Below, one piece after another: positions 1,405-35,062 of a stretch of DNA of 64,000 bases. Each line of letters begins with the position of its first letter. Within the stretch, counting starts at the first letter, position 1. The stretch is from Pseudobdellovibrionaceae bacterium (lineage in GTDB: Bacteria > Bdellovibrionota > Bdellovibrionia > Bdellovibrionales > Bdellovibrionaceae). The stretch lies in contig JAHBUV010000001.1 of the NCBI GenBank assembly GCA_019637915.1, positions 1,520,565-1,584,564 of the forward strand, given 5' to 3'. The position numbers and the translations under genes were made by a program. Under the pieces are notes generated by a model. That model had not been told where the DNA came from, searched no databases, and saw nothing but the letters and a program-made list of their open reading frames with translations.

Positions 1405-1741
1405 GGTTCACTCCCATTTGATGCCGAAGGCTGACGATTTCCGCCAGGATTCCGTTGAAGGATTGGCTCCATCCGCTCATGAGGCCCGAGTTGATTTTGT
1501 GCGCGATCTGGTTCAGGTTGTTCCCGATCCGCTTCAACTCGGCGATGATGTGGTCGGCATCTTCCCTGGTGAAAAGGGGGTTCTCCAGGTCGAAGCGGTT
1601 GAACGTGTTCTGTTTCAGGATGTCGGGGATCGAAAGCCCCAGTGCCAGCTTCATTTTCTGAATCCGCTTGTACTCGCTTTCCGTGAAGCGAACGCACGAA
1701 GCGGGAAGCCGTTTGCTCTTATTTTCCACAGCGTTTTCCAC
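1385..1741 (-). CDS. MobC-like relaxosome accessory protein
   Basis: This 118-residue protein should bind oriT DNA and help the relaxase melt and nick it. It has the usual MobC layout: a basic ribbon-helix-helix-like N-terminus (RFTESEYKRIQKMK), then the family hallmark LKRIGNNLNQIAHKIN around residues 68-84. The start is a GTG at 1741 with GGAG eight bases upstream. It overlaps the relaxase start, so the two are probably translationally coupled. The 114 bases just upstream (1742-1855) are the likeliest place in the window for oriT, because MobC/relaxase genes often lie beside it. They contain a small perfect inverted repeat (CCGCA/TGCGG, 1819-1831), but nothing decisive. Confidence 0.75.
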   Translation of the reverse strand: MENAVENKSKRLPASCVRFTESEYKRIQKMKLALGLSIPDILKQNTFNRFDLENPLFTREDADHIIAELKRIGNNLNQIAHKINSGLMSGWSQSFNGILAEIVSLRHQMGVNRGVRKN

Positions 1742-9782: not shown

Positions 9783-10157
9783 TCACGGCTTCCTAGGGGC
9801 TTCTTTCGGAGCCTGGGGCCTGGGTTTGGCTGGTGTCCGGGGAGCTTTTCCTTTTGCCCCTTTGGGCGCCTCTACCTGTTTCATCTCCCAGGTCTCGGGC
9901 GCAACAACCACCGAAATCCAGGCCCCCCAAAAGTAGTCCTTCGAGGGCAATTCCTTCGCGTGGAGCCACGGGACGATCACCTGCTCCGGCACCCGCGTCG
10001 GCACGTATTTGACCGAGCCCGCGCCCGCAAGCTTCAGGCTCGGTGGTTTCACGTCATATCCGGCTCGTTCTTCGAGAAGGGATTTGGACGGCGTGATCGC
10101 GCAACCCAAAACGAGGCTACTCAAGCACGCGAGTAAAGTAAGAATAGACGCTTTCAT
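9783..10157 (-). CDS. TraV-like outer-membrane lipoprotein
   Basis: The product has 124 residues. It begins with a lipoprotein signal peptide (MKASILTLLACLSSLVLGC) with lipobox VLGC. The C-terminal third is rich in Pro, Lys and Ala. In F-type systems the small lipoprotein TraV links the TraK secretin ring and TraB in the outer-membrane core complex. Here the gene follows TraB directly, as traV does in F (after traP), and overlaps the TraB stop by 41 bases. The ATG at 10157 has AAGGAG eight bases upstream. The classical cysteine pair of TraV is not evident, so the call rests on position, size and lipid anchor. Confidence 0.55.
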   Translation of the reverse strand: MKASILTLLACLSSLVLGCAITPSKSLLEERAGYDVKPPSLKLAGAGSVKYVPTRVPEQVIVPWLHAKELPSKDYFWGAWISVVVAPETWEMKQVEAPKGAKGKAPRTPAKPRPQAPKEAPRKP

Positions 10158-11385
10158 TTCCACCACTCCTTTCCTTGCGGAAGAACTCTTCCGGCAGTTT
10201 CACTTTGTCTTTCATGACGATCCACACGTCGCGGCCCGATCCGACTTCGACCGTGGGTGCGAGGCTCTGCGCCTGCTGCAAGTACCACTGCGCCACCATC
10301 CCGGCCGCGTTCGAGGCTCCGCCGGCGGCGGCGTGTGTTGCGGCATCGCCGGTCAGAATGGACGTGCCGCCGCCAAAGGCGTTCGTGCTCTGCGTGGATT
10401 GCGCCGCTTGCACGGCCTTACCCACGCCTTCCACCACCCCTGACATGAACGCCATCGCCGCCACTCGGCCCTGCTTGGAATTCACCTTGCCCTTCATGGC
10501 GAAGGAGCCGTCCTTGTCGTCGGCGATAAAACCGTTCACTTCGCGCTCGAACATCTTGCCGTTCTTGGAAACGCAGCTCATCTTGGTCGCCTGCATCTGC
10601 ACGCGCTCCGTGGAAAGATCCCCTTCCGCTTTCGCGATCATGAAGCAACCCGATAGGTCGATCTTGTGATCGTTCGGCGCGACGTAAGAGAAATCGAGCA
10701 CCATCAAAACCGGATACGTCTTTCCTTCGGGCACATCGACCCCGGTCAGCACCTTGGCTTTGACGTAACTCCCGGCCGGAAGCATGACGCCTTCGCTGCT
10801 TTTGCCCTCGGCCTTCACCGGAAACGAGATGAGATCGGCCCCTTTTCGAGAAGTGCCGACACGAGAACGGGCTCGAGGCTGAGGAGGCGAAACCGCGCCG
10901 GCTTCGAGCCCCTGGGGCGGATCGTAGAGCTGGAGCGAAGTATCTGCCGCTCCCGGCATCTGAGCCGCGCCCCCGTCCTGTTGCGGTTGCGTGAGAGATG
11001 GTCCCGCATCCGACGCTCCCATGACGGCCGGGCGGCTCTGAGCCTCCTGGAGTTTCTTCTCCAACTCCGCGAGGCGGGCTTCAAGTCTCGTCTGTCCTTC
11101 GATCATCGACTGCGCTTTCTTCGAGAGCAGGCGTTCCTTGCCATAGTAGAAGGTGCTTTCGCGATCGTTGAGGATGCGGCCTTTCTGGAAGTCGATGGAA
11201 GCCCCGCGTTCCACAATACGGTTCTCGCTCTTTCCGCCGAGGCCGATCACATTCACGATGAGAAGAACACCCACGACGGTAAGTCCCACGAAGATCGGCT
11301 TTTTCTGTACGATCTCCTTGATTCTCGCTTCGTGTTTCTTCCAGTCGAAGGATTTGATCTGCGTGACGATTTCGCTCATCTGCAT
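10117..11385 (-). CDS. traB: TraB/VirB10-type channel protein
   Basis: This 422-residue protein spans the envelope and forms the VirB10-like scaffold of the conjugation channel. It has a short cytoplasmic N-terminus, one membrane helix (IFVGLTVVGVLLIVNVIGL, about residues 31-49), a coiled coil (RLEARLAELEKKLQ, about 100-115), a Pro/Gln-rich linker (about 135-175) and a C-terminal beta-rich domain from about 185 (SFPVKAEGKSSEGVMLPAGS). This is the TraB/TrbI domain order. The ATG at 11385 has GGAGG upstream. The ribosome site overlaps the end of traK, which indicates tight coupling. It sits in the conserved order traL-traE-traK-traB. Confidence 0.85.
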   Translation of the reverse strand: MQMSEIVTQIKSFDWKKHEARIKEIVQKKPIFVGLTVVGVLLIVNVIGLGGKSENRIVERGASIDFQKGRILNDRESTFYYGKERLLSKKAQSMIEGQTRLEARLAELEKKLQEAQSRPAVMGASDAGPSLTQPQQDGGAAQMPGAADTSLQLYDPPQGLEAGAVSPPQPRARSRVGTSRKGADLISFPVKAEGKSSEGVMLPAGSYVKAKVLTGVDVPEGKTYPVLMVLDFSYVAPNDHKIDLSGCFMIAKAEGDLSTERVQMQATKMSCVSKNGKMFEREVNGFIADDKDGSFAMKGKVNSKQGRVAAMAFMSGVVEGVGKAVQAAQSTQSTNAFGGGTSILTGDAATHAAAGGASNAAGMVAQWYLQQAQSLAPTVEVGSGRDVWIVMKDKVKLPEEFFRKERSGGNESVYSYFTRVLE

Positions 11386-11386
11386 A

Positions 11387-12265
11387 TCACTCTCCTCCCT
11401 TCGATTTGGTTACAGGCTCTTCGTCCTCCATCGCGAGGATCACATCGCGGCTCGAGGCCGTGTTTTTCGCGACCACGCGAACGAGGGTTTCGTTCACGCC
11501 TTTTCCCTTCGGAAAGAGCGTGGACTCATCGCTCTGGGAAAGAATGGCGAGGCTGGGATTTCCGACCGTGATATGGCGCACGTCGATCTCGAGGTTCTTC
11601 CTCCAACTCGTGTTCCGCACCTTGAAGACGTAACCATTGAAGGGCTTTCCTTGATAAATCCGAACGAGCTCCACTTGGGCGCTCCCGTTTTTCGATGGGA
11701 ACACCTGGGACACCCGTATCACCTTGTAGCCGGACACGCTGTCGTCCCGGTACATGGCCTTCAGAAGCTCGATCTCGGTCAGAGCCGGAGCGTTGCCGTC
11801 GATTCCGGCTTCCACTGAGTCCCGCGACTTGAAGTCGTAGAACGAGTCCGCGGCCGGATCTTTCGGGTTCACGAGGATCTTCACCCGAACCACAGACTTA
11901 TCCACGAGGAAGAAGGTCACGTCGTGGACCCCGTTCGTGAACCTCGGCGTGATGCTTAAAGACGAATAGTCGCCCTTGCTGGTCGGCTCCACCTGAAGGC
12001 GGCCCGCACCTGTCACGGTTTGGACCGCCTTCTCGAAGCGAAACACGGTGGGTGTGCCATAAATGATCCGCACCTGCTCGGCGGTGGAACCATAGACCAC
12101 CGTCTTTGCTTCGGCGCGGTTCACGACCAATCCCACCAGAAGGATAAAGAAGCAGATATAGATCCCGATGAGAAGGGCGAACACGACCTTGCGAAAGAGG
12201 TCTTTGAGATTTTCGCTCCCGAAAATCAGACCGCTGTTGATTCCGATGACATTCTTATCGACCAT
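11387..12265 (-). CDS. traK: TraK-like secretin-ring protein of the conjugation core
   Basis: The protein has 292 residues. After a charged leader there is a hydrophobic segment ending in a signal-peptidase-like site (about residues 25-54, ending NRAEA) and then a beta-rich exported domain. F TraK is about 242 residues and forms the outer-membrane-associated ring with TraV. The ATG at 12265 has GGAGG seven bases upstream and overlaps the traE stop by 11 bases; an ATG 15 bases earlier would include the ribosome site itself. The identification relies on position between TraE and TraB and on the export signal. The C-terminal part has the beta-strand alternation expected for TraK. Confidence 0.7.
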   Translation of the reverse strand: MVDKNVIGINSGLIFGSENLKDLFRKVVFALLIGIYICFFILLVGLVVNRAEAKTVVYGSTAEQVRIIYGTPTVFRFEKAVQTVTGAGRLQVEPTSKGDYSSLSITPRFTNGVHDVTFFLVDKSVVRVKILVNPKDPAADSFYDFKSRDSVEAGIDGNAPALTEIELLKAMYRDDSVSGYKVIRVSQVFPSKNGSAQVELVRIYQGKPFNGYVFKVRNTSWRKNLEIDVRHITVGNPSLAILSQSDESTLFPKGKGVNETLVRVVAKNTASSRDVILAMEDEEPVTKSKGGE

Positions 12266-12983
12266 TGGTTTTTCCTCCATTCGCGCTAGGTTTGAATCCG
12301 TCCGCTCGCCCGCGCTTCAAGCTCGTGATCTCCAAGAACCACTCCTTGCCCTTGACGGGCGGGACAAGGCGCATGGTCATTTCGATGACTTCGTCAACAT
12401 GGCCGAGGTTCTCGGCGTTGGAATAGCGTTCGCGTTGGGCAATGGCGGTGACTTTGTAGAAGCCCTCCGCGGCGGACACGATTTCACGGTCTGTCACGCG
12501 CAAGATCTCTGAGATGTTTTCCATCTTGACGGTCTCGCGCCACTCCCGCGCCTCTTCCTCGAACTGGATCGAAAGCTCCGGGCTCATGAACGAGGCCAGT
12601 CGCTTGTACTGCTCGTCGATGTTCGCGGCGTTGACGTTCCCGAGCATCCCGAGAAAGGTCATGGCCGCGTTCACCACATACGAGTCCGACACAGACTGAG
12701 GCGAAGCGGGGGTGAAATCCATCACTCCCGGCGCGAGGATGTATTCCTTCTCGCGCAACTTCGTCTGAAGACCGTGGATTTCGTAGCGTGAGAACGCGAA
12801 GTTCACAGCGAAGGCCGCGAGATGAATCACGAGGAGATACTGAAGCGTCATGTTGTGCTTCAGCATGGCTGCTTTGAAGGCGATGAACTTGGGAAGAATC
12901 CGAAGATCGACCCCCCGGTACACACCGACCGGGGGGCTCGCGATCTGCGCGGCTTCGATTCCCTTATCCATGGCTGTCAGCAT
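12255..12983 (-). CDS. traE: TraE/VirB5-VirB8-like conjugation protein
   Basis: The product has 242 residues: a cytoplasmic N-terminus of about 45 residues, one membrane helix (YLLVIHLAAFAVNFAFS), and a periplasmic domain. This is the topology of F TraE (188 residues), an inner-membrane component of pilus assembly. Conserved-looking segments include SDSYVVNAAMTFLGMLGNVNA, which resembles the TraE core. I chose ATG 12983 (AAAGG eight bases upstream); the frame stays open far upstream, but that part overlaps an independent small gene and reads like non-coding sequence. Order traL-(82-residue gene)-traE-traK matches F apart from the insertion. Confidence 0.7.
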   Translation of the reverse strand: MLTAMDKGIEAAQIASPPVGVYRGVDLRILPKFIAFKAAMLKHNMTLQYLLVIHLAAFAVNFAFSRYEIHGLQTKLREKEYILAPGVMDFTPASPQSVSDSYVVNAAMTFLGMLGNVNAANIDEQYKRLASFMSPELSIQFEEEAREWRETVKMENISEILRVTDREIVSAAEGFYKVTAIAQRERYSNAENLGHVDEVIEMTMRLVPPVKGKEWFLEITSLKRGRADGFKPSANGGKTNGR

Positions 12984-13212
12984 TTCGTTTGCCTTTCTTT
13001 TTAGGTTTCTCGTCCGCAGTTCCACTTGCGGCTCGATCTTTTTCCAGAGCGTGATTGCGGCTGATCGCAGAGAGATAATTAGCGGGCAAAATCCACGTCT
13101 CCACACGCTCGAGAATCCAGAAGCGACCATCGCGAGAGAGCTTCGCGCGAAGGTCGAAATTGGGTTTTCGCTCGTAGTGCTTGTTCTGTTTTTCGTTGGT
13201 TTGTTCGTCCAT
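12964..13212 (-). CDS. Small basic protein inserted between TraL and TraE
   Basis: 82 residues, hydrophilic and lysine-rich, with a short aromatic stretch (DGRFWILERVETWILPANYL) that could be a beta hairpin. It has no signal peptide and no membrane helix. A strong ribosome site (GGAGG, four to five bases before ATG 13212) and 20-base overlap with the traE start show that it is translated with the pilus genes. F-type systems have no gene in this place, so it may be specific to this ICE lineage. I do not recognise a family; a cytoplasmic regulator or assembly factor is possible. Confidence 0.6.
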   Translation of the reverse strand: MDEQTNEKQNKHYERKPNFDLRAKLSRDGRFWILERVETWILPANYLSAISRNHALEKDRAASGTADEKPKKKGKRNADSHG

Positions 13213-13254
13213 ACGTCCTCCATTTGGGTTGTTGTTTGCATTGCTTGTCCTTTC

Positions 13255-13569
13255 TTAGTCTGAAAATCGCCGCTCGTTCCCTCGCGGGTTGATAAGGCCG
13301 GGTAGGTCCATGCGAAGGCGCGCATACGGCCAGTGGAAGAAGATCCCCTTTGGATACTTCTTCTTGATGACTGGCCCCGCGCCCAGGCACAGAACCAGCA
13401 GCGTGAACATCGTTCCCCACGAATAGAAGAGCACCCCGAAGATCAGGATGATGAAGAGGGCGATGAACACATCCGACAGCTCCCAGAAGTCGAAAACCAT
13501 GATGGGAGCGTCGATGGTCTGACTCACGAGCGAGGAGTGTTTGGCTTTGAGAAGTTCCTGCTTACGCAC
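13255..13569 (-). CDS. traL: TraL-like pilus assembly protein
   Basis: 104 residues with two close membrane helices (about residues 32-46 and 50-65) followed by a basic cytoplasmic tail containing PYARLRMDLPG and ending near RRFSD. Size, topology and position directly after the pilin gene match TraL of the F pilus assembly complex (VirB3-like). The start is a GTG at 13569 with GAAGGAG seven bases upstream; it overlaps the pilin stop by eight bases. Confidence 0.75.
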   Translation of the reverse strand: MRKQELLKAKHSSLVSQTIDAPIMVFDFWELSDVFIALFIILIFGVLFYSWGTMFTLLVLCLGAGPVIKKKYPKGIFFHWPYARLRMDLPGLINPRGNERRFSD

Positions 13570-14115: not shown

Positions 14116-14874
14116 TTACTGACCAGCGCTTTTCAGAAGGCCGATGACATCTTCATATCCGTGGTATCCCTGGATCGGCGGCAGCAACGCCTTGCGCTTG
14201 TCGTCCGCGATCAAGAGAAACGGAACTCCGCTGATCCCGTGCTTTTTGACCTCCTCCTGGGTCGCAAAGCCCAGCGGCACAACCTTTTCGTCCGCGGGCA
14301 CTGGCCCGCGGTCGATTTGCAGCGCATGGACTTCGATGCCGTCATCTTGGAGACGTTTCAGGACGCCAAACATCCGCTTGCAATGAGGGCAGGTGGACTC
14401 AAAGTACATTCTGACTTTGAATCTTGCGGCATCGAGCGCCCCCTGCGCCGGCATGGCGGGCCTCGCCGCTTTTGAGGGAACTGCGGGCCCCACATTCATC
14501 ACCGGCATCTGACCGTTCTTCGCCAAATACTCGCGCACGCGCTCATCAAGACGACGAGCGAGCTCGTTTTTCTTCTTCATGAACTCGAACCAATTTTTGA
14601 TGTTCTCGTCCGTCGGATTCCGTGCGATTTCCATGAACGGCTCGGGTGGCGTATAGTCGCCTTCTCTGAAGAACTCCTTGTTCTTCGGATCGAGGTAGGT
14701 CTTCCAAGGAAATTTACCGCCCCCGGAGGTTTCGTCAGGAAGGGGGGATTTCGGGGGAGGGCTGACGGCCGTCTTTTTGTCGCCCCAAAAGTCGATCTTG
14801 GAGTCGAAGTAAGACAGCTCACCCCCGAGGGTAGTAAACGGAAAAATCAGAATCAAAGCGCTAAAAACTTTCAC
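14116..14874 (-). CDS. traF: TraF-like thioredoxin-fold conjugation protein
   Basis: The product has 252 residues with a signal peptide (KVFSALILIFPFTTLGG). Residues about 55-125 contain the TraF-type segment FPWKTYLDPKNKEFF and EIARNPTDENIKNW. A thioredoxin-like domain follows, with active-site motif CPHC at about residues 160-163 (F TraF lacks the active cysteines, many relatives keep them) and cis-Pro segment GVPFLL. It would act in the periplasm on disulphides of cysteine-rich transfer proteins such as the TraU-like protein. The start is GTG 14874 with GGAGG six bases upstream, overlapping the ATPase stop by 14 bases. Confidence 0.8.
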   Translation of the reverse strand: MKVFSALILIFPFTTLGGELSYFDSKIDFWGDKKTAVSPPPKSPLPDETSGGGKFPWKTYLDPKNKEFFREGDYTPPEPFMEIARNPTDENIKNWFEFMKKKNELARRLDERVREYLAKNGQMPVMNVGPAVPSKAARPAMPAQGALDAARFKVRMYFESTCPHCKRMFGVLKRLQDDGIEVHALQIDRGPVPADEKVVPLGFATQEEVKKHGISGVPFLLIADDKRKALLPPIQGYHGYEDVIGLLKSAGQ

Positions 14875-16036
14875 GAATCACCTCCAGGCAGTCGATCTCG
14901 CCCAAACGGGTGCGATGTACTCTTGCCGCGTCCAAGCTCTGATGAATCTTGGGCACCCTGCGGCCTTCGTGGTTCTCGAAACTCGCCCACTCCAGGACAG
15001 GAACACGCCCCTTGATGCCTGCGGAGCACTCCGGGCAGCCGCCCGCGCTTTTGGTTTTCAGGAGGCGGATCCCCTCTGCTCCATGCTTCTTCCGAAAACG
15101 AATCTCGTCGGCGGGCGAAGCGGGCAACCCGCAAGCGAGACATACCTTCTGCTCCAGACGTTGCGCAATGGACAGGCGCAAATTGGACTCCAGCACCAGG
15201 CGTTCCACGCCCAGGCCGGATAGACGCTCGATCACCTCGATCGCGCCGTTGGCGTGAAGCGTGGTAAAAACCAAGTGTCCTGTCTCCGCGGCCTGAAAGC
15301 AGAGCTTCGCGGTTTCCGCGTCGCGCACTTCGCCGACCAGGATCACGTCGGGATCTTGACGAAGCACCGAGCGGAGGGCGTCGGCGAACGTCATCTTTTT
15401 TGAGACCGGAACCTGATTCAGCCCCTCGATCCGATATTCAATCGGATCTTCCAGGGTCACGATGTTGAACTTCGACGGGCCAATGGCCTTCAGGAGCGCA
15501 TAGAGCGTCCTTGTTTTCCCGCTGCCCGTAGGCCCCGAGATCACCACCACCCCATCCTCCAGGCCAATCGCGGCTTCGAGCACTGATCGCTCGGCGTCGG
15601 TGAAGCCGAGCTCGGCGAGCGCGAAGGTCGCGTCGAGATTCAGAAGCCGCATGACGATTTTTTCGCCAAAGTGGGTCGGTAGCAAGCTCACGCGTAGATC
15701 CAGGCGCAACGCGGGCAACGCCGCCCGACCGTCTTGCGGCCGCCCGCTGATACCGATGGCAAGACCGAAGATTCTCTTCACCTCCAGGATCAGACTTTCC
15801 CGATGCTGGGGGCGGACCTGCTTGAACAGGGACAGGTTCCCGTCCACCCGCAGCCTCAAGGCCACGCCCTGTTCGTTCGGCTCGATATGAATGTCGCTGG
15901 CTCCGCGCATTTTTGCCGCCGACACGAGGTCGTGCAGCAGGCGTGCATAAGGCCCTTCATCGTGAAGAAGCTGCTCCGCCGTCCGGCGTTTGGCGACCGT
16001 GATGCCATGTTCATGTTGAACTCCGAGGGAACTCAC
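14861..16036 (-). CDS. GspE/PilB-type secretion ATPase in the conjugation operon
   Basis: 391 residues. It has the GspE/PilB core: N2-like domain (RGASDIHIEPNEQGVALR), Walker A GPTGSGKT at about residue 166, Asp box (TLEDPIEYRIEGLNQV), Walker B (PDVILVGEVRD) at about 228, His box (GHLVFTTLHANGA), and the zinc-binding tetracysteine arrangement CLAC (about 297) and CPEC (about 334). Such hexameric ATPases drive type II secretion and type IV pili. GTG 16036 is the start: GGAGG lies six bases upstream and it overlaps the upstream stop by four bases. F-type systems normally have no VirB11/GspE ATPase, so its presence in the middle of the tra operon is unusual. It lacks the N1 domain of true GspE. 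Confidence 0.85.
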   Translation of the reverse strand: MSSLGVQHEHGITVAKRRTAEQLLHDEGPYARLLHDLVSAAKMRGASDIHIEPNEQGVALRLRVDGNLSLFKQVRPQHRESLILEVKRIFGLAIGISGRPQDGRAALPALRLDLRVSLLPTHFGEKIVMRLLNLDATFALAELGFTDAERSVLEAAIGLEDGVVVISGPTGSGKTRTLYALLKAIGPSKFNIVTLEDPIEYRIEGLNQVPVSKKMTFADALRSVLRQDPDVILVGEVRDAETAKLCFQAAETGHLVFTTLHANGAIEVIERLSGLGVERLVLESNLRLSIAQRLEQKVCLACGLPASPADEIRFRKKHGAEGIRLLKTKSAGGCPECSAGIKGRVPVLEWASFENHEGRRVPKIHQSLDAARVHRTRLGEIDCLEVIRESF

Positions 16037-17052
16037 TTCATACCTCCACAGGCGGCGGGGATGGCGAGGGCCGCGGCCTTTGCCTGAAGAGCCGCCGGAA
16101 AATCCCGGCACGTCTGCGTCTTCTTCCAGATCACGAACAGGTAGCCTTTGAGCTTTCCGTTCGTCAGCCGCATGGTCTCCCGTGCATTCTTGATCGTCTC
16201 GAGAACACCGACGTTCTGCCCCTCGCGGAAGCAAGAACTCGACTGCGGGTAAATCATTTGCCACTTCTCATCGGGGCTCGCCGGCATGGTCTTCAAAACC
16301 TCGACCGACAGGCTCTTGATTCTTGAGGCGATCATCAAAGCCCCTGTCATGGACGCGGGTCCCGTGTATGTCCCATAGCGCGGGAAGAAGACGCCCCAGC
16401 CGTTGCAAACCGGATGACTGCTCGGCGGGAAAATATCGAGCTTTGGCACCGGAAAGCTGCACATGGCGGAATCGGCGGCGAAATCGCTCCCACCGCCGCT
16501 GACGGACGTAGCGGCTCCCTTCAGGAGACACGCTTTCGGAGCCGCACTCCAGGCCAGGAAAGCCGGCTGAAGAAGATCGGCCTTTCCGGTGTCCCAATGA
16601 CTGCCGAAGTGCTCGCTCATGCCGTCAAAGCACATTTTTTCCATGCGCGTGCCGCCCGCGGGCATCGCCCGAAAGACGAGGCCCGCAAGGGGGACGGCAA
16701 TCGCACGGGCTTGATAACTTTGCGTATCGTCGTCACCTTCCGCTCCGTAAGGGCGCGGAAGAAGCTTCATGAGTTGCAGGCCCGCTCCGGGGATCGCGCT
16801 GAAATAGCTGGTTCGTGGCTCGGGCCAAACCTCGATAAACGATTGGGGAACGTAGTAGGAAATCGAGGCACACGGACGCGGCGGCCAGCCACAGGTGCAA
16901 CCGCCGATGTTGAGCTCAAGGCAAGACGGGAATGCGGGCGAACTTGCCACAGTGCAAACGTTCGGGATCATCGCTCCATGCACAGGCCCCGCCAAGAGCA
17001 GAGAGGCCGCAACCGCCCGCAGGTTCTTCATGATGATTTTGATTTTTTCCAC
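16033..17052 (-). CDS. TraU-like protein, probable independent internal start within the coupling-protein frame
   Basis: An alternative translation unit inside the preceding frame. AAGGAGG (17057-17063) stands four bases before GTG 17052, and seven codons later comes the signal peptide beginning at Met 17031. A cleaved, periplasmic TraU-like protein of about 330 residues would result. TraU proteins of F-type and ICE systems are exported, disulphide-rich and needed for DNA transfer rather than pilus formation; the TraF-like thioredoxin encoded just downstream is a fitting partner. The ribosome site is strong evidence that the C-terminal part is made separately even though the upstream frame is open. 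Whether the fused form is also made cannot be told from sequence. Confidence 0.55.
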   Translation of the reverse strand: MEKIKIIMKNLRAVAASLLLAGPVHGAMIPNVCTVASSPAFPSCLELNIGGCTCGWPPRPCASISYYVPQSFIEVWPEPRTSYFSAIPGAGLQLMKLLPRPYGAEGDDDTQSYQARAIAVPLAGLVFRAMPAGGTRMEKMCFDGMSEHFGSHWDTGKADLLQPAFLAWSAAPKACLLKGAATSVSGGGSDFAADSAMCSFPVPKLDIFPPSSHPVCNGWGVFFPRYGTYTGPASMTGALMIASRIKSLSVEVLKTMPASPDEKWQMIYPQSSSCFREGQNVGVLETIKNARETMRLTNGKLKGYLFVIWKKTQTCRDFPAALQAKAAALAIPAACGGMK

Positions 17053-19083
17053 AAGGCCTCCTTTGACCGAGACTCGAAGGATCTCCAGAACGGTCTCGTG
17101 CTTCGTGTTGATGGCCTTCAAAAAATGCGGCTTGAGATAGAGTTTCAAGAATCGAGTCTCGATCCCGTCGAAGACTTGAGCGAAAGCCTCGAACGTGCGG
17201 AGGCGGGAGAATTCTTTCCCCGTCACCAGGTCCTCGCGGCGAGGACTGCGGCTCACGGATTCGTTGATGCTCGCGTTCTCCGAATCGAAACCGCCGGCCA
17301 GAAGGTTGAGTTTTGCGGACTGCGCCGTTTCGGACAGAGAGCGCGTCTGCTTCTCAACGTCTTCTTTCCCCGCAAGTTCCTGGAAGACCTTGATCGTTTC
17401 GAGGTCCGAGGAATGGCAGGCGATCCGCGTGCGGAAGTTCTGCACCAGCTCCAAAGCAGGGCGCTGACTTCCCACGGAATTCATCAGGGAGCTCAGAGAT
17501 TGCGTTGCGACGATCACGGCGGGCTTCGATTCACGAGCCTTTGCCAGAAAGCTTTCGTCGCCGATGGTTCCGCCGCCTCCGCAGGTCACAACGTCCTGAA
17601 ACTCGTCGATGAATAGGGCCGTCGTATAAGGCGCCTTTCTCTCTTTCAGCTCCGGGAGCAGGTTCAAAACCGCTTGTTCGTAGTGAAGTTTCACGAAGGT
17701 TCCCATCGAACGAGCGAGACCCGGCTGGCTCACATCGAACAGCAGGATCTTCCGCTCGCGGATCAGGTCTTCCATCGAAGTGATCGTCAAGTGTTCTTCC
17801 TTCGGGCAAAACACGCGGCTGGCCGCGAACTCCTGGAACTGGTTGATGAAGGCTGTACTGGTCGCCACGATCCCGGTTCGCACGCGGTCTTCAAGCTGGG
17901 AATACTCGTTCTCGAAATACTCCAACGCTCGCCCGATGTTGAAGCATTCCTCATCGGTAAAGGTCCCACGTTCGATGCACTCCTTCAGATCGGCGGCCAG
18001 ATTCTCCTTCGAGGCGCGGACAATGGTTTGGTACAGATCCAGCAGCGTGAAATACCCGTGCTTTGCCGCACAGTAGATCAGTGTGTTGCGAACCAAGTGC
18101 GCCGAGGAGATATCCCAGAACGGAGAATCCGAGCTCTTACCCATGAAGTTCACCGCCGCCGAGCGGACCATGTCGGCGAGCTCTACGAAACGGGAATCGC
18201 GCAGCGGGTTTTTCATGTAAACGGGATTGAAGCTTTGCATTCCCTTGAGGGAAATCTTCATGATCCTGTCTCCAAGACCCGCACGCTTGATGATCTGTTC
18301 CGCTTCCTGAAGGAAGGTCCGTTTCGGATCGACCGCGAGAATAGCCGGAGCGATTTCCGGCGACTGAACGATCTGGCTCAAGTACCGCAAGATCGTGCCC
18401 TGCGTTTTTCCTGAGCCAACGGAACCCGAAATAAAGACGCCGCCGTTAAGCCCTCGGCTTGGGATCTTGACCCAGCTTTCGCTCTCGCTTTGGTTTTCGT
18501 GGCTGATCTCGCCAGGGGTGGTGCCAAGCACCAACTCGCCGCGTTCAACCTCCGGCGCATCGAGCTTGTAGCGATCTGAAAAGGAAAATTTGAGACTGCC
18601 TGCGATCCCGAGTACGAGATAGAAGGCGAACCCGCAGAAAACTGCGAGATTTCCGCTGACCCCATGCACGAGCAAGGAGAGCATCCTCTCTTGCACGAAC
18701 GGGATCGTCCCCGGCAGCAAGGCCTCTTTTGCCAACGCGAGCGCACAGATGTACGCGCCGCCACCCACCATCAATGACAGGAAGCCGCCTCGCCCGAAAC
18801 GAAACTCACGCTTTCGCCCCTCGAGCATTGCGAGGCGGCTTCCCTGTCGTTCCAGCCCGATGCTCCGCTTGAGCAGAATGGCAAGGACCGTCAGGTTCAC
18901 CGTCAAAGCACAGAGGGAGAGCCACAGGCCGCCCGCGTGTTGCTCCGCCAGCCGTAAAAGGATTTCAAGCTCCCGCGGATAGAACCGCAGATGCCTGAAA
19001 TACACATAAACCGCGACGGCCACGATGAGCGTCGCCAGGGCGAGCGGCAGCGGAATGTCGTTTCGCTTCTGTGCGGCGGTCAT
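16033..19083 (-). CDS. TraD-like coupling protein fused in frame to a TraU-like exported protein
   Basis: One uninterrupted frame of 1016 codons. Residues 1-680 are a VirD4/TraD coupling protein: N-terminal membrane helices (about 11-28, 54-72, 103-117, 141-161), Walker A GSVGSGKT (220-227), Walker B LFIDEFQD (about 485) and the AAD-containing nucleotide domain. It would bring the relaxase-DNA complex to the channel. From Met685 the frame becomes an exported cysteine-rich protein: a perfect signal peptide (MKNLRAVAASLLLAGPVHGA), then many cysteines (CGWPPRPC, IGGCTC) and the TraU-like segment SYYVPQSFIEVWPEP. No stop codon separates the parts. Its start ATG 19083 overlaps the upstream stop as TGATG. 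The C-terminal half may also be made on its own (see next entry). The TraU label is by pattern and position. Confidence 0.8.
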   Translation of the reverse strand: MTAAQKRNDIPLPLALATLIVAVAVYVYFRHLRFYPRELEILLRLAEQHAGGLWLSLCALTVNLTVLAILLKRSIGLERQGSRLAMLEGRKREFRFGRGGFLSLMVGGGAYICALALAKEALLPGTIPFVQERMLSLLVHGVSGNLAVFCGFAFYLVLGIAGSLKFSFSDRYKLDAPEVERGELVLGTTPGEISHENQSESESWVKIPSRGLNGGVFISGSVGSGKTQGTILRYLSQIVQSPEIAPAILAVDPKRTFLQEAEQIIKRAGLGDRIMKISLKGMQSFNPVYMKNPLRDSRFVELADMVRSAAVNFMGKSSDSPFWDISSAHLVRNTLIYCAAKHGYFTLLDLYQTIVRASKENLAADLKECIERGTFTDEECFNIGRALEYFENEYSQLEDRVRTGIVATSTAFINQFQEFAASRVFCPKEEHLTITSMEDLIRERKILLFDVSQPGLARSMGTFVKLHYEQAVLNLLPELKERKAPYTTALFIDEFQDVVTCGGGGTIGDESFLAKARESKPAVIVATQSLSSLMNSVGSQRPALELVQNFRTRIACHSSDLETIKVFQELAGKEDVEKQTRSLSETAQSAKLNLLAGGFDSENASINESVSRSPRREDLVTGKEFSRLRTFEAFAQVFDGIETRFLKLYLKPHFLKAINTKHETVLEILRVSVKGGLVEKIKIIMKNLRAVAASLLLAGPVHGAMIPNVCTVASSPAFPSCLELNIGGCTCGWPPRPCASISYYVPQSFIEVWPEPRTSYFSAIPGAGLQLMKLLPRPYGAEGDDDTQSYQARAIAVPLAGLVFRAMPAGGTRMEKMCFDGMSEHFGSHWDTGKADLLQPAFLAWSAAPKACLLKGAATSVSGGGSDFAADSAMCSFPVPKLDIFPPSSHPVCNGWGVFFPRYGTYTGPASMTGALMIASRIKSLSVEVLKTMPASPDEKWQMIYPQSSSCFREGQNVGVLETIKNARETMRLTNGKLKGYLFVIWKKTQTCRDFPAALQAKAAALAIPAACGGMK

Positions 19084-20178: not shown

Positions 20179-20194
20179 TGCGAGGTCAGTGCCA
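20179..20194 (-). promoter_or_regulatory. Sigma-54-type (-24/-12) promoter for the transfer operon
   Basis: Read on the minus strand the element is TGGCAC-TGACC-TCGCA. The GG of the -24 box and the GC of the -12 box are separated by exactly ten bases, the strict RpoN spacing. Five of six bases of the consensus TGGCAC/TTGCA core fit in each half or better. Transcription would start near 20168, about 45 bases before the first small gene. The activator gene encoded divergently at 21016 is exactly the NtrC-type protein such a promoter needs. Confidence 0.7.
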
Positions 20195-20608: not shown

Positions 20609-21015
20609 CGGTAAATCTTACATTGTCCTTCTGGTCTGAAAATTTCTTGAGGACAGCGATTTTCCAGAAAAATAGTCCTGAGTTCGAATATTTGGACGGC
20701 TCTCTACCGCAGCGGCACCGTCGGTCTGCAAAAAGTATTTAGAAATACTCAATAAACGAAAAACATCTTTCAATTTAGCGACTTACTTCTTTGCGTGAAT
20801 GCTCTTGACCCCGGAAAGCTGAAAATTTCTTTAGCGCCGGCCCACTTTCTACCGCTCTATTCGCCCGCGGAAGCACGATCCAGCACACGCTTTGCCTCTT
20901 AAGTCTTCTTAATGACTCCTCAAATAAACAAGAACAGGAGAGTTGGCCCTCAACTTGCTCTAAGGCCAACACGGGATCGCTTGAATCCAACCCATCAGCC
21001 AAAAAGGAGGACCAG

Positions 21016-22455
21016 ATGAGTTCATACGTGCTTGCTGTTGATAATGACCCCATGGTGCTCGGCGGACTTCTTCGTTTGGCTGAGGACACGCCTATCGAAG
21101 TGGAAACGGCCACCAGCGGAATCCAAGGCATTGACCTAGTCACCCGGTCGCCGGACAGGTACCGGGCCGTTCTCCTCGACTACGAAATGCCGGGAATGAA
21201 CGGCGATGAAGTTGCCCGTCGCATGAGAGAGATCAACCCGAATCTCAAGATCATCATGCTTTCGGGCACCGAGGATGAAGAGGTCGTGAAGTCGTGTTAT
21301 GCCGCCGGCGCGGAACGTTTCGTTCTGAAGGCCCAGGACAGCAGCAAGATTCGCGACATTCTCCTTTCTGTAGTTAGCGATGATGAAGCTAGTGAGATCG
21401 ACCCAGACAGCGAAAAAGAAACCGCCCTACAGAATGCCATTCTCATCGACAGCACCTTGAAGATGAAAGGCCATTCAAGGGCGATGGCAAATGTCGCCAG
21501 AGTCGTTAAGAAGGTCAGCGCCAGTAATGAAAATGTTCTGATCCAAGGTGAGAGTGGCGTCGGGAAAGAACTCGTCGCACGAGGAATTCATGCAAACTCA
21601 CCAAGAGCGGGCGGGCCATTTATCGCAATCAACTGCGGCGCGATTCCCAAGGAGCTTCTGGAAAGCGAGCTGTTCGGACACGAAAAAGGCGCGTTTACGA
21701 GTGCCGTTCAGTCTAAAAAAGGAAAATTCCTTCTCGCGAACAACGGCACGTTGTTCCTGGATGAGATCGGCGATCTCGAACTCCCGCTTCAAGTCAAACT
21801 ACTCCGGGCTTTGCAGGAAAGAACTATCGAACCCGTCGGCAGCCAAATGTCCATCAAGGTGAACATCAGAATCGTGGCGGCGACCCATCGAAACCTCGCG
21901 GACCTGGTTGCGAAAGGACTCTTCCGGGAGGACCTGTACTACCGCCTGAAGGTCTTTCCCGTCACGATCGCGCCGCTCAGGGAACGCCCAGAGGACATCG
22001 AACCCATCGTCCATCACATCATCAGCTTGAAAGAGGAGGAAACCGGGACAAAAAGAAAGATTTCGGATGCGGCCATGCGCGCCTTCAAAAGCCTGCCTTG
22101 GCCGGGAAATGTTCGTCAGCTCGAGGCCGCCGTTAAATACGCTTTTCTCAACTCCACTCGTGTGATTCAGGTGGACTCGATAGATCCCGAACTTCTATCC
22201 GCCAAGCAGCGGTTCGACCAGCTCGCGAAACAACGGGGACTGATGAGCCACGAAGAGTTCACCAAGATCGTCTTGGAGATGGAGAAATCGCTTCTCGAAG
22301 ATGCCATGAAGATGGCTGGAAATGTTAAAAGCCGAGCCGCGGAGCTCTTGGGAATCAGCCACCAGGCGATGAACTATCGCCGGCGCAAGCTCGGCTTAGA
22401 TGCCGAACCCGAAACGGAAAAAAGTGAAACGAAAAACAAACCATTGGAGGTATAA
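21016..22455 (+). CDS. NtrC-family sigma-54-dependent response regulator
   Basis: 479 residues in the classical three-domain order. The receiver domain (1-120) has the phospho-acceptor Asp55 (LLDYEMPG) and Lys105. The AAA+ domain has Walker A GESGVGKE (178-185), Walker B FLDEIGD (247-253), and the sigma-54 contact loop at 225-230, which reads GAFTSA instead of GAFTGA. A Fis-type HTH (SRAAELLGISHQAMNYRRRK) is near the C-terminus. It should activate RpoN promoters when phosphorylated. The obvious kinase partner is encoded four genes downstream in the same operon, and the obvious target is the sigma-54-type promoter of the divergent transfer operon. ATG 21016 has AAGGAGG. The next gene starts directly after its stop. 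Confidence 0.92.
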   Translation: MSSYVLAVDNDPMVLGGLLRLAEDTPIEVETATSGIQGIDLVTRSPDRYRAVLLDYEMPGMNGDEVARRMREINPNLKIIMLSGTEDEEVVKSCYAAGAERFVLKAQDSSKIRDILLSVVSDDEASEIDPDSEKETALQNAILIDSTLKMKGHSRAMANVARVVKKVSASNENVLIQGESGVGKELVARGIHANSPRAGGPFIAINCGAIPKELLESELFGHEKGAFTSAVQSKKGKFLLANNGTLFLDEIGDLELPLQVKLLRALQERTIEPVGSQMSIKVNIRIVAATHRNLADLVAKGLFREDLYYRLKVFPVTIAPLRERPEDIEPIVHHIISLKEEETGTKRKISDAAMRAFKSLPWPGNVRQLEAAVKYAFLNSTRVIQVDSIDPELLSAKQRFDQLAKQRGLMSHEEFTKIVLEMEKSLLEDAMKMAGNVKSRAAELLGISHQAMNYRRRKLGLDAEPETEKSETKNKPLEV

Positions 22456-22743
22456 ATGAAGAAAATCGTAATCCTTATCGCGGCTCTTGCGCTCAAGAGC
22501 ACGGCCTTTGCTCAGACCATGAGCCAAGAAACTCCCTATCTGGAAGATGGGGCCTACTACGCCCTGTCCCCTGAGCTGGCAGCTCGCCTCAACATCGACT
22601 ACAACTCCCTGATCCAGGCTCTTCGCCTTCGCGAAAATCAAGGCATCGTCGTGAAGAAAGAAGTCGGGCAGGAAAACGTGGATATTTCCATCTTCGATTC
22701 GCACCAGTTCGCGCAAGCCCGCATGGACTTTGTCCGTCAGTAG
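22456..22743 (+). CDS. Small secreted protein, candidate signal or peptide precursor
   Basis: 95 residues starting with a clean Sec signal peptide (MKKIVILIAALALKSTAFA, cut after about residue 19). The mature part of about 76 residues has no cysteine and no membrane segment, and ends with an Asp/His/Gln-rich tail (VDISIFDSHQFAQARMDF). It begins at the base after the activator's stop codon with GGAGG upstream, and is followed five bases later by the HExxH gene, so it is co-expressed with them. I do not recognise a family. Its size, export and neighbours (putative peptide hydroxylase, peptide-binding protein, kinase) make a processed signalling peptide an attractive but unproven idea; a periplasmic modulator of the kinase is the alternative. 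Confidence 0.75.
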   Translation: MKKIVILIAALALKSTAFAQTMSQETPYLEDGAYYALSPELAARLNIDYNSLIQALRLRENQGIVVKKEVGQENVDISIFDSHQFAQARMDFVRQ

Positions 22744-22748
22744 GTCAC

Positions 22749-23594
22749 ATGAGCTTGAAAGAGAACTGTCTTGCGGCATTGAAAGAGGGATCTTGGACGT
22801 TCGACGTCCTGGGGCCGATCTTTCGTTCCGCTCTCACCAAGAGGGTTCAAGGACAGGACCCCTCTCTTTCTCTTCAAGATCGCCCCATGGTGGAGCTGAC
22901 GCTTCTCGCTTACCGACGGACGCTGTCCGGCACGGAGCCCATTCAATCCGCGGATATGGTGATTAACCCCGCCCTTCAGTCCGAAGCGGCGCGGGCCGCG
23001 CTTCAGGATCTCGCTGAGTCCACTGTTGATGGCGGTTTCATCTCCACCTTCACGGCCGATGAGCGGGCTCACATCCGTGCCGCCATCGAAGAGATCAACC
23101 GGCACGCACCAGAAACGGCCCAGGAGTTTCGTCGCTGGATCACCCATTTTCTGAAGCTAGACGGCGTTCCCTTTCGGTCGGCATCCCACCCCCATGCCTT
23201 CGGCTGCATTTTCTTGAGCTCTCGAATCGCCTCGATGAGTCCCGCAGAGCTCGCGACTTCAATGGTCCATGAAATGGGCCATCAGGATCTTTTTCTTCTC
23301 AATATCATCGACCGACTGATCCGGGAGGAAGCCGACTACAAGATGGCCCATGCTCCCTTTCAAGGCGTGCTTCGCCCTCCCATCGGTCGTCTGCATTCCT
23401 ATTTCGCCCTTTTTCGGATGATCCAGTTTGAACGGCTGGCTGGCCTGGAAACGCGGAAACACAGCCGCCTTTTTTACGAAACCAAGGAGTCCTTCACTCA
23501 AGATGAACTGACGGAATATGGCTTCCAGATCGTCGAAGCCGCCGCTGCTTTCATCGAAGGGCAATCGCCGCAGATGGAGCAACGAACTCTATGA
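22749..23594 (+). CDS. HExxH protein resembling 2-oxoglutarate-dependent peptide beta-hydroxylases
   Basis: 281 residues, no signal peptide. The core reads GCIFLSS at about 152, then VHEMGHQDLFLL with the metal motif H174-E-M-G-H178, and after about 30 residues VLRPPIGRLHSYFALF with His216. This layout (GxxxLS, HExxH followed by L, an RPxxGxLH segment supplying a third His) matches the HExxH family found with peptide-modification loci and described as 2-oxoglutarate-dependent peptide beta-hydroxylases, more than it matches ordinary zinc proteases, which have no RPxxGxLH element. The expected substrate would be Asp, Asn or His in a small peptide; the preceding 95-residue product is the natural candidate. 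A membrane-independent metalloprotease acting on that protein is the main alternative. Confidence 0.6.
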   Translation: MSLKENCLAALKEGSWTFDVLGPIFRSALTKRVQGQDPSLSLQDRPMVELTLLAYRRTLSGTEPIQSADMVINPALQSEAARAALQDLAESTVDGGFISTFTADERAHIRAAIEEINRHAPETAQEFRRWITHFLKLDGVPFRSASHPHAFGCIFLSSRIASMSPAELATSMVHEMGHQDLFLLNIIDRLIREEADYKMAHAPFQGVLRPPIGRLHSYFALFRMIQFERLAGLETRKHSRLFYETKESFTQDELTEYGFQIVEAAAAFIEGQSPQMEQRTL

Positions 23595-25072
23595 CAAGCA
23601 TCGTCTTCAAAAAATCCATGCTTAAAACTATTATTTTCCTGGGAGCATTTATCATGACCAATACCAGCACCGCCGCCTCAGAGGCACCGCTAAAACTCGG
23701 CTACGTTCCGACGAGCTTTCCACGCGACATGATCGAAGTGAATCAGTTTGCCGAACACGCGATTCTCGGTCAGGTCCTCGAACCTCTGGTGGATGCGGAC
23801 CGCTTCGGCAACATGACGCCGGGATTGGCGAAAAGCTGGACCGTCTCATCGGACGGTCGCACTCTAACTTTCGATCTTTTTACAGATCGCGTTTTCTCAA
23901 CCGGCAGGCCGATCACCTCAAAGGACGTGGTTTATTCTCTGACACGGCATCTGGACGGCGGTTCTCAGTCGCGCAATTTTCTCACCTCCATCGAAAGCAT
24001 TTCCGCCGAAGGGCCGCAGGGGATCATCATCAAGTTGAAAGAACCGAACGTCGCCATTCTGAAGGCTCTCACGCGCGACCACCTCGGTATTGTCCCCAGC
24101 GACTGGAAATTCGATTCGAAATCCGATGAACCGATCATCGGCTCCGGTGCGTACCGACTCGTTCGCAAAAGCGGCAAGTGGCTGCTCATCACCAACGAGA
24201 AATTCCTGCATAAGGAAAAAATCTCCATCCCGCAGTGGGAGCTGGTTTTCTTCTCTCCCGAAGGATCTGGAGTTCTGGAATCTCCTCTTCCAGATTACGC
24301 CCCTCTGATCACTCAGCAGGGACGAGACGATCTCGAATCCGAATTCAAGAAAAATGGAATTCCTGTCGAAATCAAGGAGCAACTGAGCTTCGTTCAGACA
24401 TCACTTTGGTGGTATCCGCACGGCGAGCGTTATCGCTCCACCGAAGATAAGTCCCGGATCATGAGCTTTCTCAGCGACTTGGTCGAAACTCGCTGCAAAC
24501 AGACGAAATGCCAGCGTGCCACGGGAATCGTCCCTGTAGGCATCGCCGGATTCTTGCCTGAGCCGCTGAAAGTCGCGACCGCTCCCAGGCGCGCCGACAA
24601 GAAGATCAAAGTGCGTTTGGCGACGATGGGAGTTCTGTTCGACTTCCTTTTCGAGGGGAAAACGGCCGCAGAAGTGGCGGCGAAGCACAACGTCGAGTTT
24701 GAATTTTTCACCTTCTCGCCGGCGACCCTGAAAGAGCTGACCGTCAAGAAACCGGATGTCGTCATGGGAAGCTGGGCCGGCGGGTTCAACGACCCCGAAG
24801 GATTCCTACCGCTCCTCAATCAGCTTCTTGCGACCGACTTCGTGAAGTTCCTGGAGGATCTGGCTCCGCTTTACCAAAAGGCCCGCACTGAGCAGAACTG
24901 GACCAAGCGTGCGGACCTATTTCGCGAATTTAACGAACGTCTCGTAAAAGAACAGCGGATGGTTCCGGGCTGGAAGATCCCAATGTACTCGGTTCGACGC
25001 CCCAATCTCAAGGAAGAGGAGATTGGCTTCCGCTACACACCACGACTCATCAACGTGAAGAAAGGCAAGTAA
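23591..25072 (+). CDS. Periplasmic oligopeptide-binding protein (SBP family 5), no transporter partner
   Basis: 493 residues with a Sec signal peptide (hydrophobic stretch TIIFLGAFIMTNTSTAA, no lipobox Cys). The mature protein follows the OppA/DppA pattern: LGQVLEPLVDADRFGNMTPGLAKSW, then LTFDLFTDRVFSTGRPITSKDVVYS, and a late GFNDPEGFL. It should bind a peptide in the periplasm. No permease or ATPase gene is nearby, which argues for a sensory rather than a transport role. It overlaps the HExxH gene as ATGA and is followed three bases later by the kinase gene, so ligand-bound protein could present a peptide to the kinase's periplasmic domain. Solitary binding proteins that feed sensor kinases are known in other systems. 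Confidence 0.85.
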   Translation: MTSIVFKKSMLKTIIFLGAFIMTNTSTAASEAPLKLGYVPTSFPRDMIEVNQFAEHAILGQVLEPLVDADRFGNMTPGLAKSWTVSSDGRTLTFDLFTDRVFSTGRPITSKDVVYSLTRHLDGGSQSRNFLTSIESISAEGPQGIIIKLKEPNVAILKALTRDHLGIVPSDWKFDSKSDEPIIGSGAYRLVRKSGKWLLITNEKFLHKEKISIPQWELVFFSPEGSGVLESPLPDYAPLITQQGRDDLESEFKKNGIPVEIKEQLSFVQTSLWWYPHGERYRSTEDKSRIMSFLSDLVETRCKQTKCQRATGIVPVGIAGFLPEPLKVATAPRRADKKIKVRLATMGVLFDFLFEGKTAAEVAAKHNVEFEFFTFSPATLKELTVKKPDVVMGSWAGGFNDPEGFLPLLNQLLATDFVKFLEDLAPLYQKARTEQNWTKRADLFREFNERLVKEQRMVPGWKIPMYSVRRPNLKEEEIGFRYTPRLINVKKGK

Positions 25073-25075
25073 GCC

Positions 25076-26821
25076 GTGCCGACCCGCAACGACCTGTTCA
25101 GAAAGATGAGCCTGAGGAGATTCTTCGTCCTCATCATCTGTACGGGGGTTATCGTCTGCTCCGCGGTCTATACCCTGGCTCAGACGTGGCGGGACTTTGA
25201 CCGTGAAAAGGAATCTCACACCACATTCCAGCGGAAGATTTCGGCAATGATGGCGAACTCATTGCGGGAGCCGCTGGTGCAGGGCGCTTCGATTGAGGCC
25301 AGCCTTCGCATTCAGTCCTTTCTCAAGCAGGACCCCAGCGTGATTTGCATGACCATTGAAGGCCGCGATATTCCCGGAGCGAGCTGCGAGGGGAAAGACC
25401 TGAAATCGAGATCCATTTTTCAGACGCACGACGATCTTTTCTACGACGCCAACCAAGCGCATTTGCTCGCCAAGGTAAATATCTTCTACGACAATTCCAG
25501 TCTCTATGGTTCTTGGAAGAGAAAACTGCGCGATTCCCTGATTATCAACCTACTGATTTCCCTTCTCATCTTTTCGTTCATCGGCACCTTGGCCGCACGA
25601 CTTCTCCGCAACGACATCAAGACGGTTCTCGATGAATGCAATCCCGAGACTCAGGGACAACAGACTTCGGAAGGTATCCGCATCAAGGAGTTCTCTCATC
25701 TTTTCCATAAGCTCAAAGGTTACATCGCGGAGGCCAAGCTCAATGCCGAAGCCAGAGCCGCCGCAGAGATCGCAAAACAGGTTGCTCATGACATCCGATC
25801 CCCCCTCGCAGCTCTCCGCATGACAATTGAATCCCTGCATTCCCTCAACGAGGACACGCGTCGAACCATCCAGTCCGCCTTTGAGCGGATCAACGATATT
25901 GCCAATGACCTGATGAACAGGTGGCCTGCCGTCAGTCTTAGTGTCGCCGCCGAAGAGTCCTCCGAGCGGAAGGTGGAGCTCCTCAATGATCTCGTGGAAA
26001 GCATCATTTCAGAAAAAAGAATCCAGTACCGCGAGCTCTCCGGGATCGCCCTCGAGCTGAGAACCGACCGTAAAGCTCATGCCCTTTTCGCCAGTATTTC
26101 CGGGCATAGGCTCAAACGCGCCCTGTCCAATATCATCGACAATTCATACGAGGCGATCTGTCAGCAAGGGAAAATTGCTGTTTCAATCACGCTGGAAGGA
26201 GGCCATGCGCGGATCTCGGTGAAAGACAACGGCAAAGGCATCCCGACGGACATCCTTCCCAAGCTGATGCAGAAAGGGAGCACTTTCGGGAAGGAAGAGG
26301 GAAATGGTCTCGGTCTCTACGATGCGAGAAAGACCATCGAGGCGTGGGGAGGCTCGATTTCCCTGGAATCCAAAGTGAACCAGGGCACAGAGGTCGTCGT
26401 ATGTCTTCCTCTCGCGAAAGAGCCGGAATGGTTTGCCCGCAAGATCATCTTCGACTCCTCGACGACCATCGTATCCATTGACGATGACGTCAGCATTCAC
26501 GAGATCTGGCGCTCTCGATTCAATTCCGTGATGGAAAGTTTCGAGGGTATTCGCTTCCTAACATTCTCCTCTGTCACTGAGTTCATGGAGTGGCGCTCGC
26601 TCAATACGGAAGGCAACTACCTTTTCCTGATCGACCACGAATTTCTTCACCAGAAGATGACCGGTCTTGATGTCGTCGAACGACTCCGTATCGAGCAGAA
26701 TTCCATTTTGGTCACGAGCCGATATGCCGAAACTTCGGTTTCCCAAAAGGCAAAAAAACTGGGAGTTTCGATCCTTCCCAAAAACTTGGCCGGCTTCATT
26801 CCCTTCGAGATAGCGGCCTGA
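25076..26821 (+). CDS. Sensor histidine kinase with C-terminal receiver-like domain
   Basis: 581 residues. Membrane helices at about 16-36 and 154-175 enclose a periplasmic sensor of some 115 residues with two cysteines (91 and 104). A dimerisation/phosphorylation domain follows with the H box AKQVAHDIRSPLAALR (His238). The ATPase domain has the N box (SNIIDNSYEAI), G1 DNGKGIP and G2 GNGLGLY. The last 125 residues look like a receiver (VSIDDDVSIHEIWR, then LIDHE, SRYAE and LPKN), but several conserved positions differ, so its phosphotransfer role is unsure. Start is GTG 25076 with AAAGG upstream. It is the last gene of the regulatory operon and the likely kinase for the NtrC-type protein at its head. 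Confidence 0.9.
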   Translation: MPTRNDLFRKMSLRRFFVLIICTGVIVCSAVYTLAQTWRDFDREKESHTTFQRKISAMMANSLREPLVQGASIEASLRIQSFLKQDPSVICMTIEGRDIPGASCEGKDLKSRSIFQTHDDLFYDANQAHLLAKVNIFYDNSSLYGSWKRKLRDSLIINLLISLLIFSFIGTLAARLLRNDIKTVLDECNPETQGQQTSEGIRIKEFSHLFHKLKGYIAEAKLNAEARAAAEIAKQVAHDIRSPLAALRMTIESLHSLNEDTRRTIQSAFERINDIANDLMNRWPAVSLSVAAEESSERKVELLNDLVESIISEKRIQYRELSGIALELRTDRKAHALFASISGHRLKRALSNIIDNSYEAICQQGKIAVSITLEGGHARISVKDNGKGIPTDILPKLMQKGSTFGKEEGNGLGLYDARKTIEAWGGSISLESKVNQGTEVVVCLPLAKEPEWFARKIIFDSSTTIVSIDDDVSIHEIWRSRFNSVMESFEGIRFLTFSSVTEFMEWRSLNTEGNYLFLIDHEFLHQKMTGLDVVERLRIEQNSILVTSRYAETSVSQKAKKLGVSILPKNLAGFIPFEIAA

Positions 26822-31224: not shown

Positions 31225-31233
31225 GGAAAAAAT

Positions 31234-34371: not shown

Positions 34372-34386
34372 CTATTGGAGGTGCGG

Positions 34387-34998: not shown

Positions 34999-35062
34999 AG
35001 AATTTCTAGCCGCGAGCTACGACGGATGAGAGTCCGGTCGTGGCATCGCCTTTACGGAGTCG

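Follow-up and report, generated by a model that had tools for sequence, protein, structure and literature searches.

A five-gene operon encoding an aKG-HExxH hydroxylase-family enzyme as a candidate system for modified-peptide signalling on an integrative conjugative element in Bdellovibrionota

The window analysed here is a 64,000-nucleotide stretch of a Pseudobdellovibrionaceae genome (GCA_019637915.1, contig JAHBUV010000001.1), from a bacterium related to the predator Bdellovibrio. Five same-strand genes form an operon (21016-26821) in the order regulator, 95-aa protein, HExxH enzyme, binding protein and kinase, with gaps or overlaps between genes of 0-5 bp. The first gene (21016..22455, +) encodes an NtrC-type response regulator with receiver, sigma-54 activator and Fis HTH domains (PF00072, PF00158, PF02954), whose sigma-54 contact loop reads GAFTSA in the window and GAFTGA in the orthologue from G001, a genome of the same genus. 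This is followed by the 95-aa protein with a Sec-type N-terminus (22456..22743, +), the 281-aa HExxH protein with no signal peptide (22749..23594, +), an SBP_bac_5 periplasmic binding protein of the OppA/NikA type (23591..25072, +; PF00496, E=1.7e-25) and a membrane histidine kinase with a periplasmic loop (25076..26821, +; HisKA, PF00512; HATPase_c, PF02518). The sensor kinase, binding protein and small secreted protein that the first-pass annotation had named as neighbours of the enzyme were all found in this operon. The nearest solved relatives of the binding protein were AapF, AgaA, NikA and OppA; its family also includes nickel and heme binders and is only compatible with peptide binding, so that the protein is put forward here as a proposed peptide receptor. 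Comparison with same-genus orthologues gave dN/dS ratios of 0.046 for the regulator, 0.073 for the 95-aa protein, 0.141 for the enzyme, 0.051 for the binding protein and 0.081 for the kinase, indicating strong purifying selection on all five genes.

Genes for F-type conjugative transfer occupy the minus strand to the left of the operon. They encode a TraD/VirD4-type coupling protein (16033..19083; PF10412, E=1.1e-12; PF12696; PF06834), which appears to be joined to a TraU-like C-terminal stretch, a TraF-like protein (14116..14874; PF13728, E=9.3e-8), TraB/TrbI-, TraK- and TraE-like proteins (10117..13325; PF03743, E=5.2e-25; PF23536, E=2.3e-5, and PF05309, E=3.6e-5, both under the gathering cut-off), a TraC (VirB4-type) ATPase (5558..8086; PF11130, E=4e-27), a TraG N-terminal-like protein (2637..4172; PF07916, E=1.8e-6, under the gathering cut-off) and a MobC/NikA-like mobilisation protein (1385..1741; PF21983, PF05713). 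About 1.3-2.5 kb beyond the left end of the window is a tyrosine integrase gene (PF00589). Judged by its gene content, the region is an integrative conjugative element: type IV secretion, coupling, mobilisation and integrase genes are present, and neither a relaxase nor att sites were found. The transfer region also carries a gene for a Fic-domain protein with a penicillinase-repressor-like N-terminus (8235-9668, -). On the other side, heavy-metal efflux-type genes adjoin the operon (29477-37276, +; an outer-membrane-factor-like protein, an RND pump and a P-type ATPase) and are probably cargo of the element.

The first-pass annotation had assigned the product of 22749-23594 to the 2-oxoglutarate HExxH beta-hydroxylase family and not to the zinc proteases, and had proposed an HMM search and a structure comparison as checks. 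The ORF and the motifs on which it had relied were all in place: the HEMGH codons (H174-E-M-G-H178) lie at 23268-23282, the GCIFLSS lead-in is present in the translation, and RPPIGRLH forms residues 209-216 (R209 codon, 23373-23375; H216 codon, 23394-23396). Both checks bore out the assignment. The protein matched the NCBIfam model TIGR04267, 'aKG-HExxH-type peptide beta-hydroxylase', with 57.8 bits (E=1.3e-15), above the curated cut-off of 40 bits, and no protease family was among its HMM matches; a Pfam search returned no family for either the enzyme or the 95-aa protein. Residues S146, H174, E175, H178, R209, P210 and H216 were unchanged across 26 relatives with identity down to 17 %. Taken with the TIGR04267 score and the dN/dS of 0.14 against the G001 orthologue, this invariance rules out a chance occurrence of HExxH in the ORF. 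The solved relatives detectable by sequence were ChlH (8s5f, E=3.9e-6) and, weakly, 22nu, with no others; the HExxH motif and the following RP...H segment align to ChlH, RPP.G.LH is common to ChlB-HExxH, and the position equivalent to H216 is Gln in 22nu. An AlphaFold model built from the 26-relative alignment (pLDDT 92.5, pTM 0.91) gave ChlB-HExxH (8s5f, E=4.9e-10) and SjiH (22ob, E=5.9e-7) as first and second Foldseek matches, and the first protease in the list, from the Zn peptidases, had an E-value of 0.047. Membership of the aKG-HExxH peptide beta-hydroxylase family is near certain. R209 is plausibly the aKG anchor and H216 plausibly the third ligand.

The N-terminus of the 95-aa protein (MKKIVILIAALALKSTAFA, followed by Q) is of the classic Sec type, ending in AFA ahead of the Q. 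Its C-terminus carries a conserved core, SIFDSHQFAQ-ARMD-FVRQ (22687..22740, +; ARMD at 22717-22728), which is the proposed site of oxidation. In the stretch encoding the 22 C-terminal residues, the window and G001 sequences differ by nine nucleotide changes and no amino acid change. The core resembles the tail of a characterised substrate, PosA of Pseudomonas, which reads IGVAAIFDTQQQQ-ARMD (PMC12636437). When the 17-residue PosA tail printed in that paper was compared with the stop-to-stop frames of the window and related loci, 15,334 in all, the 95-aa protein ranked first, and the precursor of a second module in the same genome ranked third. The protein is a likely substrate of the adjoining HExxH enzyme, and the locus has what is looked for in a RiPP precursor, an adjacent gene and a conserved core like that of a characterised substrate. 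For the leader, neither an HMM nor a fold match was obtained: the structure model was weak (pLDDT 65, with a folded-looking middle of pLDDT about 80), and a fold search with this low-confidence model matched no solved structure. PDB and NCBIfam matches of the precursor alignment were discarded as short or repeat-driven chance matches.

Several characterised enzymes provide a guide to the chemistry. PosC and PflC, aKG-HEXXH enzymes of Pseudomonas, beta-hydroxylate Gln residues and cut the peptide backbone ahead of ARMD, so that an amide is left (PMC12636437). As in the window, these are stand-alone enzymes encoded beside a small precursor (PosA or PflA) with a tail of the form IFD-x-Q..-ARMD. 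The two systems differ in that ARMD is C-terminal in PosA and PflA but internal (ARMDFVRQ) in the window precursor, and in that the PosA/PflA leader is nitrile-hydratase-like, without a described Sec signal, whereas the window precursor is of the Sec type. The Pseudomonas clusters also add GNAT, MNIO-nitroreductase and transporter genes, and a binding protein, kinase and regulator are not reported there. ChlB-HExxH and SjiH are the closest solved folds and share the HExxH motif and RP segment with the window enzyme; both work alongside a radical SAM domain, ChlB acting on a cyclophane peptide, while the window enzyme has no radical SAM partner. A third comparison is with PesO of nitrilobacillin biosynthesis, an aKG-HExxH enzyme that hydroxylates the Pro directly ahead of R(V/T)DN (PMC13060819). 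The PesO target thus precedes a tail akin to the [AS]R[VMI]D of the window family, although PesO differs in its proline target, its Gram-positive cluster and the sensing genes, which are not reported for it. Our own generalisation from these sequences is that a residue with R[VMT][DN] after it seems to serve as a common recognition element; against it, PosC mutants show that Ala is the sole critical ARMD residue for that enzyme.

Among the relatives, a single protein may hold up to about six copies of the [AS]R[VMI][DE] core. In the position directly ahead of HExxH genes, the core takes the form ARMDFVRQ at L017 and L018, ARADIVQQ at L019-L021 and ESRVDERQR at L025, and it is degenerate at L022-L024 (LASDIV, LAADIV, MAMDIV). 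A 70-aa precursor with two cores is encoded at L075. Two further loci (L073:9729-10616, -; L074:9769-10557, -) encode Sec-type proteins in which a SESRVEIL-like core occurs about six times; these adjoin the HExxH enzyme, binding protein and kinase and are apparent multi-core precursors. At L070 and L071, the core is found in peptides of 24 residues (METTTINLDIFNETIFAEARVDEH and MSTTLINLDIFNDTVFSEARIDRD, respectively) upstream of the HExxH gene; the Sec signal is missing from these peptides, which suggests that their export route differs. The more distant enzymes of L077-L083 are found with longer Sec-type small proteins that have the conserved tails SRHSFIR, KASFISGN and DHSFA.

The same module of enzyme, precursor, SBP_bac_5 protein, histidine kinase and sigma-54 regulator is found repeatedly across Bdellovibrionota. 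In a profile search, 30 of the 369 genomes of the phylum contained relatives. The binding protein and kinase accompany the enzyme at nearly every locus on a long enough contig, the gene order varies, and the NtrC-type regulator is often present; the exception is L075, where enzyme and precursor occur with neither binding protein nor kinase. Distance matrices of enzyme, binding protein and kinase over 18 loci were strongly correlated (pairwise r=0.89-0.94, with r=0.93-0.94 for the enzyme against each of the other two), a level reached in 0 of 2000 permutations. This shows co-inheritance of the three genes, from which interaction does not follow. A scan of 85,000 species by alignment and conserved patterns yielded 11 loci, all on Bdellovibrio-like contigs except one, L035 (CALQIT020000123.1), a contig titled Streptomyces griseus with a Bdellovibrio-type module that is apparently a mislabelled bin. 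A single-sequence scan of genome contigs gave no match, and no relative is encoded in any plasmid record. Several loci come from metagenome bins: contigs C191 of G001 and C9 of G019 are near identical and may reflect mis-binning, and about 15 kb is nearly identical between L019 and L021 in these different-genus bins, through either mis-binning or very recent transfer.

A second module (L017) is present in the window's own genome (G000), with an enzyme that is 42 % identical to the window enzyme and also exceeds the TIGR04267 cut-off. Both modules sit on the same 3.26-Mb contig of an assembly that is 99.8 % complete in 14 contigs. The second module adjoins a different TraC gene, with a serine recombinase gene within about 20 kb, and its binding-protein gene (L017:10135-11820; contig C1 of G000, about 2633134-2634819) has one mid-gene in-frame stop that may represent decay, readthrough or a sequencing error. 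Homologues of the window transfer-region proteins were found at 12 of 27 other loci within the fetched 4-20 kb; the weaker of these are L028 (TraC, 2e-6), L023 (a small gene neighbouring TraD) and L077 (a TraD fragment at a contig end). Conjugation genes are absent nearby at L070, L071, L073 and L074, and control of transfer is therefore not a general property of the module.

Candidate sigma-54 sites link the operon to the transfer genes by position. A -24/-12-like site, TGGCCCTCAACTTGCT (20944..20959, +), lies 72 bp ahead of the regulator gene, and a second, TGGCACTGACCTCGCA (20179..20194, -), faces the divergent tra operon; the latter is identical in G001, which also keeps the former with a changed spacer. 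RpoN is encoded in the genome. The window as a whole holds no excess of such sites (114 against about 105 in shuffled sequence), so the evidence lies in where they are: the divergent spacer holds two of the five best sites in the window, each facing its own operon. Within 250 bp upstream of the module, 14 of the 28 loci have a site that scores at least 12.5, where the site densities of the individual loci would predict 0.67 (binomial P about 6e-16); this count comes from an ad hoc consensus matrix and from loci that are related and not independent. Loci L017, L020 and L021 have a site at -55 that falls slightly under this threshold. Sites ahead of tra genes were present in the window and at L018, L080, L081 and L083.

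The favoured reading, which we hold with moderate confidence, is that the operon at 21016-26821 is a self-contained signalling system of the element, based on a modified peptide, in which an oxidised peptide pheromone would autoinduce the operon and conjugation. The first-pass annotation had argued that a modification enzyme set among a sensor kinase, a binding protein and a small secreted protein points to a modified signal; the conserved linkage with binding protein, kinase and regulator strengthens that argument, and the signalling role itself is putative. We infer the exact chemistry, export, receptor binding and direction of control as follows. The 95-aa precursor would be synthesised in the cytoplasm, where the aKG/Fe(II) enzyme would oxidise its C-terminal core by beta-hydroxylation near QFAQ and/or by PosC-like oxidative cleavage before ARMD. 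Such cleavage would yield a protein ending in SIFDSHQFAQ-NH2 and a ketone-ended ARMDFVRQ fragment (pyruvoyl-RMDFVRQ), either of which might be the signal. After export through Sec and proteolytic processing, the resulting peptide would be captured in the periplasm by the SBP_bac_5 protein, which would use the histidine kinase to pass the signal to the sigma-54-dependent regulator. The regulator would then switch on its own operon, giving positive feedback, and activate the tra operon from the divergent site, tying conjugation to the level of peptide. In the window and its relatives, the kinds of gene expected for signal, receptor, kinase and regulator are found together in one locus, with the roles of their products putative. 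The family membership of the enzyme holds, and a quorum-sensing function of the operon is putative.

Two-component autoinduction of bacteriocin production is well established, and effector products are typical of most RiPP clusters. A secreted modified peptide with another job, such as a bacteriocin or an agent of interference against cells or elements, could thus be made by an operon whose binding protein, kinase and regulator only sense the peptide or the environment for its production, and L075, with enzyme and two-core precursor apart from any sensor genes, fits such an arrangement. We nevertheless consider this unlikely: neither an immunity gene nor a dedicated exporter gene lies within the module, dN/dS points to tighter conservation of the binding protein and kinase than of the enzyme, and sigma-54-like sites stand at both the module and the tra genes of the window. 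Less probable again is a nutrient- or metal-sensing operon, in which the binding protein would detect a small molecule while the enzyme and small protein served a stress function such as metal handling, in the manner of Sec-exported bufferins. The nickel binders of SBP_bac_5 and the RND pump and P-type metal ATPase on the element speak for it, as does the copper chelation by MNIO-modified bufferins (PMC12452194). However, bufferin enzymes are MNIOs and not HExxH proteins, and the module is kept in relatives with no metal genes in the fetched region; the idea of a metal-chelating bufferin, which the metal cargo had raised, was dropped, as Cys is absent from the precursor. It is likewise improbable that the HExxH protein is a site-specific protease trimming the C-terminus of a 95-aa periplasmic co-regulator of the binding protein or kinase, since, although HExxH is known as a protease motif, PflC hydrolyses before ARMD if the leader is missing (PMC12636437) and the precursor middle looks folded, both HMM and fold place the enzyme in the aKG oxygenase branch, with proteases only at E-values of at least 0.047, and ChlB-HExxH has the same RPP.G.LH segment.

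Conjugation under the control of peptide pheromones is known from Gram-positive bacteria. As in the signalling circuit proposed here, a peptide decides when a mobile element conjugates in pCF10 and ICEBs1, and pCF10 brings a peptide-binding protein of its own, PrgZ, to place conjugation under pheromone control (PMC6540685). In the Gram-positive systems the peptides are unmodified and are taken up to reach an RRNPP receptor in the cytoplasm, whereas in the window operon, from a Gram-negative bacterium, the peptide would be modified and would act through a sensor kinase and a sigma-54 regulator. Our literature search found no control of conjugation by peptide, binding protein and kinase in Gram-negative bacteria and no counterpart based on a modified ribosomal peptide. 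More broadly, conjugative elements of Bdellovibrionota may communicate through an oxidised ribosomal peptide, exported by Sec and sensed by an OppA-like binding protein with its kinase, which would amount to a pheromone system for conjugation in Gram-negative bacteria; this generalisation is offered tentatively, at slightly short of even weight. Under it, different cores would confer different specificities, and one genome would have two such systems. If the proposal is true, it would provide the first physiological role in cell-cell signalling for aKG-HExxH hydroxylases and would carry the [ASP]R[VMT]D element beyond two papers on biosynthesis to an entire phylum. It would also place gene transfer in predators and related bacteria under the control of a compact circuit of precursor, enzyme, receptor, kinase, regulator and two promoters.
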